A stretch of DNA of 64,000 nt, taken from Leptotrichia wadei (GTDB lineage Bacteria; Fusobacteriota; Fusobacteriia; Fusobacteriales; Leptotrichiaceae). The stretch covers positions 186,001 through 250,000 of the forward strand of contig NZ_AP019829.2 of NCBI RefSeq assembly GCF_007990545.2, read 5' to 3'. Below the pieces are notes generated by a model. The model was given only the letters and a program-made list of their open reading frames with translations, had not been told where the DNA came from and did not search any database. Both the position numbers and the translations under genes were made by a program. Within the stretch, counting starts at the first letter, position 1. Each line of letters opens with the position of its first letter. Positions 1,614 to 39,083 of the stretch are shown here, piece after piece.

Positions 1614-2130
1614 TAAATAGTGCAAGAACACTCGCGACTTTAGTCGTGATATGAATTGCACAAAAATTTTAGTAAGCATATAGGGAAACTTGTATGTGGA
1701 CACGGAGCAAAACCGTGCAACAAAGAAACTGAATTGCTGGGAACTCTTAAAGCTAGTATAACCACAACATAATATCTAAGTGAAAACATGGTATAAGTGT
1801 GATGGTGGCGAAAGCAGAAAAAATATACTAGATGGTGTAAGGTTAAATCCTAAGTGCTAAGATAATAGACAATCAGCAACTAAGCCTGAAAAGGAAAGTT
1901 CAACGACTATCCCTCGTGAGGGGAGTACAATACAAGCGGTTGGTATTGGAAGTGGTTTCGCCTAAGTCCTTGAAATAGGATATGGATAAGATATAGTCTG
2001 TGCTTGTTAGAGATAACAAGAAGTTCAAGGCTAATCTCCTTAATTTATTAAGGAGTATATATGCCATGAGAACTGCATAAGCAGTAGCGCACTTATGTGA
2101 ACGACGCTTCCCACTGTTGTGGGGTTTTAA
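1614..2130 (+). ncRNA. Group I self-splicing intron, 5' ribozyme portion
   Basis: The group I core elements are visible in order. P is GAATTGCTGGGAAC (1731-1744). Q is ACAATCAGCAACTAAG (1869-1884). R is GTTCAACGACTA (1898-1909). S is AAGATATAGTC (1988-1998). GCTG of P pairs with CAGC of Q (P4), and GACTAT pairs with ATAGTC (P7). P8 is CCCTC/GAGGG (1911-1922) and P9 is CTTGTTA/TAACAAG (2003-2020). The internal guide GTAAG at 1672-1676 pairs with the 5' exon TTTAT, ending in the required U.G pair. The 3' splice site is about 1.4 kb away, after tnpB, at G3548. Confidence 0.88.
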
Positions 2131-2187
2131 AAACTTTAAAAATAAATAAAAAATATTACTTTTTTGACAGATAAAATGTAGAATACA

Positions 2188-2196
2188 TGGTATAAT
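2188..2196 (+). promoter_or_regulatory. Extended -10 promoter for tnpB
   Basis: TGGTATAAT gives an extended -10 (TGn plus TATAAT). A TTGACA at 2164-2169 is 21 bases upstream, longer than the optimal 17, so the extended -10 probably matters more. It sits 29 bases before the tnpB start, between the ribozyme and the gene, and would let tnpB be transcribed without ruvB. Confidence 0.6.
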
Positions 2197-2224
2197 ATCT
2201 CTGATGAAAAGGAGGTGATTATAT

Positions 2225-3469
2225 ATGTATTTAACATTAAAACAACAAGTAAAACATCTTAGTAAAAAAGAGTTTAAAAACTTAAAATATTTGTGCCATA
2301 TAGCTAAGAATTTAAAAAATCAAGCTATATACAATGTTAGACAACACTATTTTAAAAATAAAAAGTATTTAAGCTATAATGAAAACTATAAGATACTTAA
2401 AAATAGTGAGAATTATAAGAAGTTAAATTCTAATATGGCTCAACAAATTTTAAAAGAAGTAGATGAAAGTTTTAAATCATTCTTTGCACTTTTAAAACTT
2501 GCTAAGAATGGTCAATATAACAGTAAAATAAAATTACCTAATTATCTTGATAAAGATGGTTTTACAACTCTTGTTATAGGTTTTGTTAGATTAAAAGATG
2601 ATATGCTGATAGTTCCTTATTCAAATTCTTTTAAGAAAACTCATCAGGAAGTTAAAGTTAAGCTACCATCAGTATTAAAAGACAAGAAGATAAAAGAAAT
2701 TAGAATAATACCAAAACAACATTCTAGGTACTTTGAAATTCAATACATTTATAAGGTAGAAGAAGTTCAAAGGGAATTAAATAAAGAAAATGTACTAGGA
2801 ATTGATTTAGGTATAGATAATCTTTGCACTTGTGTTACAAATGCTGGAGCTTCATTCATAATAGATGGTAGAAAATTGAAATCTATTAATCAATACTATA
2901 ACAAGACAAATGCAAAATTGCAAAGCATTAAAGATAAGCAAAAGATAGAGCACACAACATTAAGGCAAAAGAGAATAGCTAGAAAGAGAAATAATCGCAT
3001 AAATGATTATCTTTCAAAAGCAGCAAGAATAATTATAAATTATTGTCTTAATAATGATATAGGAAAACTAGTTCTAGGATATAACGAGAATTTTCAAAGA
3101 AATTCAAATATAGGAAGTATAAATAATCAAAACTTTGTAAATATACCATATGGAAAATTAAGAGATAAATTAATATACCTATGTAAACTATATGGAATAG
3201 AATTTAAACTGCAAGAAGAAAGTTATACATCAAAAGCAAGTTTCTTTGATGGAGATGAAATCCCAATATACGATAAAGAAAATCCGCAAGAATATATATT
3301 CAGTGGAAAAAGGATAAAAAGAGGACTATATCAAACAAGTAAAGGCTATCAATTAAATGCAGATTGTAACGGAGCATTAAATATATTAAAAAAAAGTAAA
3401 GTTGTGGATTTAAGCGTCCTATACAATAGAGGTGATCTGAACACGCCTAAAAGAATAAGGGTAGTGTAA
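2225..3469 (+). CDS. tnpB: IStron RNA-guided nuclease TnpB
   Basis: A 414-residue TnpB (IS605 OrfB) protein, an RNA-guided DNA endonuclease ancestral to Cas12. The N-terminal half is the Lys/Asn-rich nucleic-acid-binding region. The RuvC-like catalytic triad is intact: D194 in GIDLGIDN, E288 in VLGYNENF and D380 in LNADCNGALNIL. Unlike the two 365-residue TnpBs in this window, it has no CxxC zinc ribbon; that position holds YTSKASFFDGDEIP and FSGKRIKRGLYQ, typical of a zinc-free subgroup. The ATG follows AAAAGGAGGTGATTATAT, a strong ribosome site. It lies inside the ruvB intron, downstream of the ribozyme core. It probably helps retain the element by cutting element-free sites. Confidence 0.9.
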   Translation: MYLTLKQQVKHLSKKEFKNLKYLCHIAKNLKNQAIYNVRQHYFKNKKYLSYNENYKILKNSENYKKLNSNMAQQILKEVDESFKSFFALLKLAKNGQYNSKIKLPNYLDKDGFTTLVIGFVRLKDDMLIVPYSNSFKKTHQEVKVKLPSVLKDKKIKEIRIIPKQHSRYFEIQYIYKVEEVQRELNKENVLGIDLGIDNLCTCVTNAGASFIIDGRKLKSINQYYNKTNAKLQSIKDKQKIEHTTLRQKRIARKRNNRINDYLSKAARIIINYCLNNDIGKLVLGYNENFQRNSNIGSINNQNFVNIPYGKLRDKLIYLCKLYGIEFKLQEESYTSKASFFDGDEIPIYDKENPQEYIFSGKRIKRGLYQTSKGYQLNADCNGALNILKKSKVVDLSVLYNRGDLNTPKRIRVV

Positions 3470-3548
3470 AGCTATCAAACTTCTTAGAAAATTTTTAAAT
3501 ATTTTTAAAGATTTTAGAACCCTGCGACTTTAGTCGTGGGAGGTTCAG
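3440..3548 (+). ncRNA. Predicted omega RNA (TnpB guide scaffold) and 3' splice site
   Basis: TnpB guide RNAs are normally read from the 3' end of tnpB through the right end of the element, with the next host bases as guide. Here the right end holds a GCGACT/AGTCGT hairpin and ends GGGAGGTTCAG at 3548, which is also the predicted intron 3' end (terminal G). The guide would therefore begin at 3549, in ruvB exon 2. The 5' boundary is not determined. Splicing and guide formation should compete for the same RNA. Confidence 0.6.
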
Positions 3549-31282: not shown

Positions 31283-31492
31283 ATGATTTGGATAATTGGT
31301 GGAACAAAAGATTCTAGGATTATTTTAGATGAGGTTATGAAAGTTAGAGAAGATGATATTATGGTAAGTACAGCTACTGAATATGGTGGAAAATTGCTTG
31401 AAGATGTGTCTAAAGATAAGCGGATACATGTAATCTCAGAAAAATTAAGTATATTGCAAATTGAAAATATAATTTTTGAAAAAAATATTGAT
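31283..31492 (+). CDS. cobK: Precorrin-6A reductase CobK/CbiJ-like, exon 1 (gene in three exons)
   Basis: CobK/CbiJ reduces the macrocycle of (cobalt-)precorrin-6A in cobalamin synthesis. Exon 1 encodes the N-terminal nucleotide-binding start, IWIIGGTKDSRIILDE. Unspliced, it hits TAA at 31493-31495 after 70 codons. Removing 31493-32038 and 32456-33001 joins KNID to LIIDASHPYAQ and NYKID to YLITKESGETGG, giving one 264-residue protein (210 + 417 + 168 bases, in frame), normal for the family. All expected motifs then appear in order. No other cobalamin biosynthesis gene is in the window, so it looks like an orphan here. The family call rests on motif order and is fairly sure. Confidence 0.85.
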
Positions 31493-32038
31493 TAAATAGC
31501 ATAGCCGTGAAATTAAGAAAGGCAATGTAAATATAGTCAGCATATATAGAAATATGTATGTGAAGGTGGTTAAAAAGCTGCCTAATACTGCTTGAATTGC
31601 TGGAAAACCCTAAAGCCAATTTAACAACAACATAATATCTATTAAAAGCTCTTTATATGAAAAAAATTTAGATATAAGTGTGACTGTTGCGAAAGCGGAA
31701 AAAATAAATTGGATGGCATAAAGATATAAAATTTATTATGGTTAAAACCTAAGTGCTGAAATTAAATAGAATAATGGGCAATCAGCAGCTAAGACCGAAA
31801 GGTAAAGTTCAACGACTATTCCATTTAGGAAGTACACCAAAGCTGGTGGAAGTGGGCAGACCCAAACAGATAAAGCTGTGGGATAAGATATAGTCTGTGC
31901 TTAATAGAAATATTAAGAAGTTTAAAAGTATCTTTAAAAAATATAAGATATTAAGAGAACTGCATAGGAAGTAGCGAATCTATGTGAACAACAACTTCTA
32001 AAGATTAAATCAATTTTTGATTTTATTAAGAGGTTCAG
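31493..32038 (+). ncRNA. Group I intron 1 of cobK
   Basis: 546 bases starting after exon TTGAT and ending TTCAG. The core elements are P TTGAATTGCTGGAAAACC (31592-31609), Q GGCAATCAGCAGCTAAG (31777-31793), R GTTCAACGACTA (31807-31818) and S AAGATATAGTC (31885-31895). P7 pairs GACTAT/ATAGTC, P8 pairs TTCC/GGAA, and P9 pairs CTTAATA/TATTAAG (31900-31917). The internal guide GTCAG (31536-31540) matches the 5' exon TTGAT. There is no reading frame of note and no tnpB. Confidence 0.87.
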
Positions 32039-32455
32039 TTAATTATTGATGCAAGTCATCCATATGCACAAAATATTAGTAATACTGTTATTTCAATGAT
32101 AAGTTATTTGAATGAGCGGAATATAGCAGGGGGAAAAATAAAATATGTAAGATTTGAAAGAAAAATATTAGATTATGGAACTGAAAATGTATTTCAGTTT
32201 AAAAATTTGCAGGAAATAAATGTATTTTTAAATAAATTTGAAAATAAAAATATATTGAGTACATTGGGATCAAATACTTTAGCAGAGTTAAGAGGTATAG
32301 CAGAAAAAAATAATTTGTTTATTAGAATATTGCCAACAACAACTTCTATACAAAATGCAGAAAAACTTGGATATTTGCCAAAGAATATAATTGCTATGCA
32401 AGGACCTTTTTCTAAAGATATGAATGCTGCAATATTGAAAAATTATAAAATTGAT
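32039..32455 (+). CDS. cobK: CobK/CbiJ-like, exon 2
   Basis: This middle exon encodes 139 residues. It starts LIIDASHPYAQNIS, the conserved CobK/CbiJ block, followed by YVRFERKIL, STLGSNTLAELRGI, ILPTTTSIQNAEKLGY and MQGPFSKDMN. Only codons from ATG 32096 could be read as a free-standing frame, and that ATG has no ribosome site and would lose the conserved opening, so it is an exon and not a separate gene. It ends at GAT 32453-32455. Confidence 0.87.
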
Positions 32456-33001
32456 TAAAACTACAACTATAAAATATACAATTGAAACTAAAAATTGTAA
32501 ATTAACTTGTAAAGTATAGTCAGCATATATAGAAATATGTATGTATAGGCAGTTAAAAAACTGTCTAATACTGCTTGAATTGCTGGAAAACCCTAAAGCT
32601 GATTTGACGACAACATAATATCTACTTTAAAATAAATATAAATATAAAGATATAAGTGTGATCGTTGCGAAAGCGGAAAAAATAAATCAGATGGCATAAA
32701 AAATAAAAATGGTTAAAACCTAAGTGCTAAAAGAAAATTTATCAAAAGAACAATGGGCAATCAGCAGCCAAGACCGCAAGGTAAGGTTCAACGACTATCC
32801 CTTTAGGGAGTACACCAAAGCTGGTGGAAGTGGGCAGACCCAAACAGGTAAAGCTGCGGGGTAAGATATAGTCTGTGCTTAATAGAAATATTAAGAAGTT
32901 CAATAATATCTTAAAAAAATATAAGGTATTAAGAGAACTGCATAAGAAGTAGCGAGCTTTTGTGAACTAAACTCTCTCTCTAATAAAATGAGAGATTTCA
33001 G
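32456..33001 (+). ncRNA. Group I intron 2 of cobK
   Basis: Also 546 bases, after exon TTGAT and ending TTTCAG. The core is clearly homologous to intron 1: P TTGAATTGCTGGAAAACC (from about 32576), Q GGCAATCAGCAGCCAAG (32756-32772), R GTTCAACGACTA (32787-32798), S AAGATATAGTC (32863-32873). P8 is TCCC/GGGA. The guide GTCAG (32519-32523) pairs with TTGAT. The first ~60 bases and the last ~40 bases differ from intron 1, the latter having a CTCTC/GAGAG hairpin. Confidence 0.87.
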
Positions 33002-33169
33002 TATCTTATTACAAAGGAAAGTGGAGAAACAGGTGGAGAACTTCAAAAGGTTCAAGCATGTCAAGAATGTGGAGTCATTATTTTAACAATAAAACGTCCA
33101 ATATTGGACTATGGGACAGTTTTTAATACGATTAAAGAATTAATTGAATTTGTAAGTCAAGAAAATTGA
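33002..33169 (+). CDS. cobK: CobK/CbiJ-like, exon 3
   Basis: The final 55 codons begin YLITKESGETGGELQKV, the conserved C-terminal block of CobK/CbiJ, and end with a helix finishing FVSQEN and TGA at 33167-33169. There is no start codon or ribosome site near its beginning, so it can only be expressed by joining to exon 2. The yigZ-like gene follows 41 bases later. Confidence 0.87.
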   Translation, partial: YLITKESGETGGELQKVQACQECGVIILTIKRPILDYGTVFNTIKELIEFVSQEN

Positions 33170-38563: not shown

Positions 38564-39083
38564 TAAATAGTGCAAGAACACTCGCAACTTTAGTCATGAG
38601 ATGAATTGCACAAAAATTTTAGTAAGCATAGGGAAACTTGTATGTAGATACAGAGAGAAGCTGTACAACAAAGAAACTGAATTGCTGGGAACTCTTAAAG
38701 CTAGTATGACCACAACATAATACTTAAGTGAGAATATGGTATAAATGTGATGGTGGCGAAAGCAGAAAAAATATACTAGATGGTGCAAGGTTAAATCTTA
38801 AACATTATGATAATAGACAATCAGCAGCTAAGCCTGAAAAGGAAAGCTCAACGACTATCCCTCGTGAGGGGAGTACAATACAAGCGATTGGTATTGGAAG
38901 TGGTTTCGCCTAAGGTGTTGAGATACACTATGGATAAGATATAGTCTGTACTTGTTAGAGATAACAAGAAGTTCAAGATATTCTTTTCTCCTTAACTTGT
39001 TAAGGAGTGAAAATATTAGGAGAACTGCATAAGTAGTAGCGAACTTATGTGAACGACGCTTTCCACTGTCGTGGGAGGTTCAG
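38564..39083 (+). mobile_element. TnpB-less IStron relative (group I intron) between marR and tpiA
   Basis: 520 bases after TTTAT (38559-38563), ending GGGAGGTTCAG. The sequence is nearly the same as the 5' part of the ruvB element, and the last bases match its 3' end. P (GAATTGCTGGGAACTC, from 38680), Q (AATCAGCAGCTAAG), R (CAACGACTA), the P8 hairpin CCCTC/GAGGG, S (AAGATATAGTC) and P9 are all present. The guide GTAAG (38622-38626) pairs with TTTAT. It keeps both transposon end sequences but has no tnpB. Inserted between genes, it interrupts no reading frame. The short open frame inside (38728-38913) covers ribozyme core and is not a gene. Confidence 0.87.

Follow-up and report, generated by a model that had tools for sequence, protein, structure and literature searches.

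A twice-interrupted cobK gene

Positions 31283-33169 of the 64,000-nt stretch of Leptotrichia wadei DNA analysed here (the window) pose a twofold question: does a cobK/cbiJ gene that is interrupted twice still work, and where did the interruptions come from? The original prediction placed three exons of 210, 417 and 168 nt at this locus, separated by two 546-nt introns (31493-32038 and 32456-33001), and the sequence bears out this layout:

31283-31492, + strand: cobK exon 1, 210 nt, 70 codons, ending ...AAT ATT GAT
32039-32455, + strand: cobK exon 2, 417 nt, 139 codons, starting just 5' of IDASHPYA and ending ...AAA ATT GAT
33002-33169, + strand: cobK exon 3, 168 nt, 55 codons plus stop, starting TAT CTT ATT ACA AAG (YLITKESG)

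The joined frame is open over 264 codons and encodes, as anticipated, a complete CobK/CbiJ protein, which aligns with Pfam CbiJ (PF02571) along nearly the whole profile, positions 2-233 of 234 (E 7e-61, 206 bits), and scores 198.6 against TIGR00715 (precorrin-6A reductase; cut-off 129.85). The separate pieces divide the profile between them – exon 1 covers positions 2-65, the exon 2 ORF extends up to 185 and exon 3 covers 186-233 – and both junctions are free of gaps in alignment with CobK from intron-free Leptotrichia (KNID joined to LIIDASHPYA, and YKID to YLITKESG). The comparison with homologs that had been proposed as a check was made: CobK/CbiJ homologs, both in Pfam and among the intron-free orthologs, align with the whole joined protein and not with fragments alone. 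Conventional gene calling had been expected to break up the gene, and indeed a listing of ORFs of at least 60 amino acids contains only a 70-residue and a 120-residue ORF and misses exon 3. Tetrapyrrole methylases, other candidates for the anaerobic B12 pathway, were found in the same genome. The evidence points to a working precorrin-6A/cobalt-precorrin-6A reductase gene (cobK/cbiJ) that is very probably spliced and used, because its exons are under purifying selection and the helices of its ribozymes have been kept by compensatory changes.

Anatomy of the introns

Each intron has the full set of group I elements P, Q, R and S and is directly preceded by the pentamer TTGAT; both points agree with the earlier reading of the locus.

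31488-31492, + strand: target pentamer TTGAT at the 3' end of exon 1, pairing partner of the internal guide sequence GTCAG
31493-32038, + strand: intron 1, 546 nt, group I (IA2-like), opening with TAA (in-frame stop) and closing with TTCAG; apparent IStron relic without ORF
31536-31540, + strand: intron 1 internal guide sequence GTCAG (P1 3' strand)
31595-31606, + strand: intron 1 P element AATTGCTGGAAA
31780-31789, + strand: intron 1 Q element AATCAGCAGC
31807-31818, + strand: intron 1 R element GTTCAACGACTA
31885-31895, + strand: intron 1 S element AAGATATAGTC, forming P7 with R
31993-32035, + strand: intron 1 terminal inverted-repeat stem, apparent IS-flank remnant (arms 31993-31999 and 32029-32035)
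32451-32455, + strand: target pentamer TTGAT at the 3' end of exon 2, pairing partner of the internal guide sequence GTCAG
32456-33001, + strand: intron 2, 546 nt, group I (IA2-like), opening with TAA (in-frame stop) and closing with TTCAG; apparent IStron relic without ORF
32519-32523, + strand: intron 2 internal guide sequence GTCAG
32578-32589, + strand: intron 2 P element AATTGCTGGAAA
32759-32768, + strand: intron 2 Q element AATCAGCAGC
32786-32797, + strand: intron 2 R element GTTCAACGACTA
32863-32873, + strand: intron 2 S element AAGATATAGTC
32975-32995, + strand: intron 2 terminal inverted-repeat stem (arms 32975-32980 and 32990-32995)

The group I core (P3-P8, P7) is present in both introns, with P7 100% paired, and the U.G at the 5' splice site, the pairing of the internal guide sequence (IGS) with the 5' exon and the terminal G all fit group I rules. 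Rfam model RF00028 matches 31536-31917 (45.8 bits) and 32519-32895 (44.7 bits), with E about 1e-9 in 2 kb; both scores fall just below the gathering score of 50, and the introns are missed at that threshold and found by a relaxed search. We looked for meaning in the equal lengths of 546 nt and regard them as coincidence: the orthologous introns of two other species measure 648/542 and 532/546 nt.

Pentamer and guide correspond in all the copies that we read, TTGAT with GTCAG (in one case GTCAA) and TTTAT with GTAAG, and when exon end and intron start are folded together without constraints, the TTGAT-GTCAG P1 forms in six of six cobK introns. Judged from these sequences, the third position, where G-C is replaced by U-A, shows a compensatory change linking the DNA insertion site with the RNA guide, such that a single pentamer would be constrained by insertion and splicing alike. 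The main text of the IStron survey by Tourasse et al. (2014, PMC4227781) treats P1 group by group, and we found no statement of this covariation there.

Inheritance and selection

In a sample of 33 genomes of the family, cobK is interrupted by the two introns, at identical codons, in three Leptotrichia species – this genome (G000), G011 and G016 – and is whole in the other Leptotrichia. The three group together in the cobK tree at 100/99, and TTGAT stands at the vacant sites in most of the Leptotrichia relatives that lack the introns. Relationship by position – intron 1 with intron 1, intron 2 with intron 2 – is favoured over relationship by genome by the site patterns (31:5, 18:5 and 21:6). 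Some segments of the two introns are more alike within a genome; gene conversion between them is at most minor, given that the site patterns favour orthology.

Among the three species exon dN/dS is 0.18-0.22 at dS 0.32-0.49; exon 3 alone gives 0.32-0.54, a figure that reflects few changes in a short exon. Across the six introns 99.3% of the cells in 95 predicted pairs are standard pairs, a value that is partly by construction since the pairing structure was derived from the same sequences and their relatives; the compensatory changes carry more weight. Ten pairs are doubly substituted; slid-strand controls give 31-39% standard pairs and 0-2 doubly substituted pairs. The three orthologous introns 1 alone contain seven doubly substituted pairs, and a wider set of 19 copies shows double changes in 36 of the 95.

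The cobK gene of G016 carries, in addition, a third IStron (G016:C1:226722-228621; L149:223-2122), 1900 nt long, of TTTAT type and with a frameshifted tnpB. It interrupts the last exon following GTIFY; beyond it the frame resumes with TIKELIEYVVKS, giving four exons in all. Open and selected exons, paired helices, TTGAT at the empty sites and an in-frame third insertion would otherwise be hard to explain, and for this reason we infer that the precursor is spliced. The interpretation of the interruptions as introns, put forward in the original prediction, is backed by Pfam coverage, intron-free orthologs, the positions shared by three species, purifying selection and compensatory pair changes.

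Relationship to IStrons

Group A IStrons are chimeras of a group I intron and an IS200/IS605 element. As the survey describes them, they insert after TTGAT, ATTAT or TTTAT, end in TCAG at the 3' side, have an IA2 core, and carry after P9.2 a GAAC motif (listed as GAACGA, GAACAA or GAACAC) followed by an inverted-repeat stem around IS200/IS605 ORFs; LbISt1 of Leptotrichia buccalis is the published example from this genus (Tourasse et al. 2014, PMC4227781). Both cobK introns follow TTGAT without target duplication, and membership of the IStron family would explain why the two share this target. The 3' terminus is TCAG, and a terminal stem is predicted beside the 3' splice site, in all six cobK introns. 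The GAAC motif reads GAACAA in intron 1 and GAACTA, which is off the published list, in intron 2. In contrast to group A elements, neither intron contains an ORF, and hence neither contains tnpB, and both of the subterminal palindromes recognised by TnpA are absent from all six. These palindromes are present near both ends in the TTGAT element D1570 and in the G014 and G005 copies (in D1570, for example, GTCGCACACTTGTGACGTAAGAAGTGAG at the left end and CCCTGCGACGCAAGAAGTGGG at the right).

Homology to the IS flank nonetheless extends beyond the ribozyme: intron 1 of G011 has GAACGACAACCTTCTAAA at the position of GAACGACAACCTCTAAAA in the full IStron D1570, and terminates in AGGTTCAG, matching the right end of D1570. 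Core identity of the cobK introns is 83-84% with the copy at G000:C1:1569019-1570810 and 85-87% with the G014 copy, and the same core, TTGAT and IGS occur in TnpB-bearing elements at these two places and in G005. In the core tree the cobK introns fall with the TTGAT kind, closer, at moderate support (95/92), to ORF-less introns of G002, a genome from another genus of the family, than to TnpB-bearing IStrons; intron 1 is not resolved as a clade, and such a clade is not rejected (p-AU 0.38). The G002 introns, of TTGAT type and without end palindromes, lie in a DUF2278 gene and a MarR gene (L135 and L136).

The cobK introns thus appear to be ORF-less, immobilised relatives – relics – of group A IStrons; we call them relics, not active IStrons, because neither has an ORF. 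The direction from IStron to ORF-less intron is not proven, because the core tree puts the cobK introns nearer the ORF-less G002 introns, and the ORF-less TTGAT lineage may predate the cobK insertions.

Other IStrons in the genome

Intron 2, used as a query of its own genome, retrieves the two cobK introns along with six further copies, and an OrfB/TnpB gene follows five of the six. Five are of TTTAT type and one, in a LysR gene (G000:C1:1569019-1570810), is of TTGAT type. Two of the TTTAT copies lie in the window. One, at 1614-3548, is a complete IStron with a 416-codon tnpB frame inside ruvB; the joined frame matches RuvB_N (PF05496), and this conserved DNA repair gene appears, from its sequence, to depend on IStron splicing. 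The other, at 38564-39083, is a 520-nt ORF-less, MITE-like group A copy with both end palindromes, located in the intergenic space upstream of a tpiA-like gene. Elsewhere, IStrons reside in mutL (G000:C1:112238-114142), a DUF956 gene (537697-539651) and a nagB-like gene (2194524-2196446); in these three genes, and in the LysR gene, the joined frames are open. A cognate TnpA for the IStrons was not found in this genome, whose four IS605 copies with intact tnpA (L047-L050) differ in target and ends.

Proposed origin and splicing

In all likelihood 31283-33169 is a working cobK/cbiJ whose two group I introns are self-splicing and derive from a TTGAT-specific, LbISt1-like group A IStron. The exon and intron anatomy, the orthology, the selection, the covariation and the loss of ORFs and palindromes are read from sequence; from them we infer splicing and its chemistry, descent from an IStron, and a role for the UAA triplets. 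Two IStron copies would each have inserted precisely after a TTGAT of cobK in an ancestor of the three Leptotrichia species, and would afterwards have shed the transposon ORFs and both of the subterminal palindromes required by the TnpA transposase, leaving of each copy a ribozyme, its IGS-target pairing and a terminal stem. In the pre-mRNA the guide GUCAG of each intron would pair with the UUGAU that ends the preceding exon, placing U.G at the splice site; attack by guanosine, then exon joining after the terminal G, would yield an uninterrupted cobK mRNA. The UAA immediately after each 5' splice site may halt ribosomes on unspliced RNA ahead of the ribozyme. Because the introns share UUGAU and guide, and because exon 2 is 139 whole codons, cross-splicing of exon 1 to exon 3 is conceivable and would produce an in-frame 125-residue CobK without its middle – exon skipping, a bacterial form of alternative splicing – although we consider this improbable.

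Alternative explanations

The alternative with most to be said for it is that the introns are real and splice, yet come from a TTGAT-specific lineage of ORF-less group I introns in which no IS was ever present, of the kind represented by the Fusobacterium periodonticum intron, which Tourasse et al. keep separate from IStrons (PMC4227781). The want of ORFs and TnpA palindromes in six of six cobK introns is what such a lineage would show, as is a core tree that groups them with the ORF-less G002 introns (95/92) and away from TnpB-bearing copies. The cobK introns have, however, the TTCAG end and terminal inverted-repeat stem that are reportedly missing from the F. periodonticum intron (PMC4227781). 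Moreover, the homology of G011 intron 1 to D1570 extends into the IS flank as far as the right end, and the G002 MarR-gene intron shares the same flank and the TTCAG end. It is mainly because this 3' IS flank is still recognisable that we prefer a reduced IStron, and we judge a lineage that never carried an IS to be unlikely.

Could cobK instead be a pseudogene holding two dead IStron copies, whose excision in silico merely recreates the old frame? An insertion that is precise and duplicates no target will in every case leave an open frame once removed in this way, and the transposon parts are indeed dead; but all three exons have stayed open in three species separated by dS 0.32-0.49, with purifying selection acting on them, compensatory changes have kept the ribozyme helices over the same span, and the G016 gene, with two introns already in place, gained a third IStron and still has its fourth exon in frame. 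Selection and covariation lead us to rule the pseudogene out, at a very small residual probability. We give still less credence to the view that the insertions are mobile ORF-less, MITE-like IStrons moved in trans by TnpA/TnpB encoded elsewhere, with repeated insertion at the same sites accounting for the three species. The genome does contain TnpB-bearing IStrons and the ORF-less, palindrome-bearing copy at 38564-39083, yet the cobK introns are without both end palindromes, and the site patterns support orthology by position. Mobilisation by a resident TnpA was rejected, the four intact stand-alone IS605 copies that encode this transposase differing in ends and targets.

Comparison with known systems

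LbISt1 and other group A IStrons resemble the cobK introns in TTGAT insertion without target duplication, the TCAG end, an IA2-type core with two P7-domain hairpins, the GAAC motif followed by an inverted-repeat stem, and a 5' UAA (PMC4227781); LbISt1 is also from the same phylum and genus. The cobK introns differ in having neither ORF A/B nor subterminal palindromes, and in occurring two to a gene (three in G016) at the same codons in three species. The G005 copy, at 1755 nt, is probably LbISt1 itself, which is reported as 1760 nt (PMC4227781). ORF-less copies are listed in the main text of the survey for the group B element BcISt1 only. In emetic Bacillus cereus these copies, like the cobK introns, keep ribozyme and inverted-repeat stem and are inherited vertically at orthologous loci; unlike them, they belong to group B (IS607, GG target, CGG end) and occur within very closely related strains (PMC4227781).

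Outside the Fusobacteriia the closest database matches are Clostridioides difficile-type records, at 66-67% identity. CdISt1 of C. difficile, the founder of group A, shares the TTGAT target, and its splicing has been shown in vivo; unlike the cobK introns it has IS200/IS605 ORFs and is present in 9-24 copies per strain.

The presence of two group I introns in one gene, flagged from the outset as unusual, is so without being unique. We know of no transposon origin for the introns of phage Twort orf142, the precedent. Like cobK it is a protein-coding gene with several related IA2 group I introns, three in number; it differs in being a phage gene and in the skipping of a 23-nt exon (PMC10136302). 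The introns of bacterial recA, nrdE and nrdF are likewise group I introns in protein-coding hosts with an in-frame stop at the start, but are of phage-like or homing-endonuclease type, reside in genes of DNA metabolism and are not IStrons (reviewed in PMC3984707). IStrons are already known; group A ORF-less relics that form two or three introns per gene across species look new against the main text of the survey.

Significance

A dead transposon seems here to have been turned into a permanent part of a working gene. The apparent passage from transposon to fixed introns has left the mobility genes and transposase-binding ends behind and retained the ribozyme, presumably kept in working order because the interrupted metabolic gene depends on splicing. 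Standard annotation fragments intron-split genes such as cobK. A single genus offers a series whose steps are open to test, comprising vacant TTGAT sites, copies with TnpB, relics without ORFs common to three species, and a fresh third insertion in the same gene.
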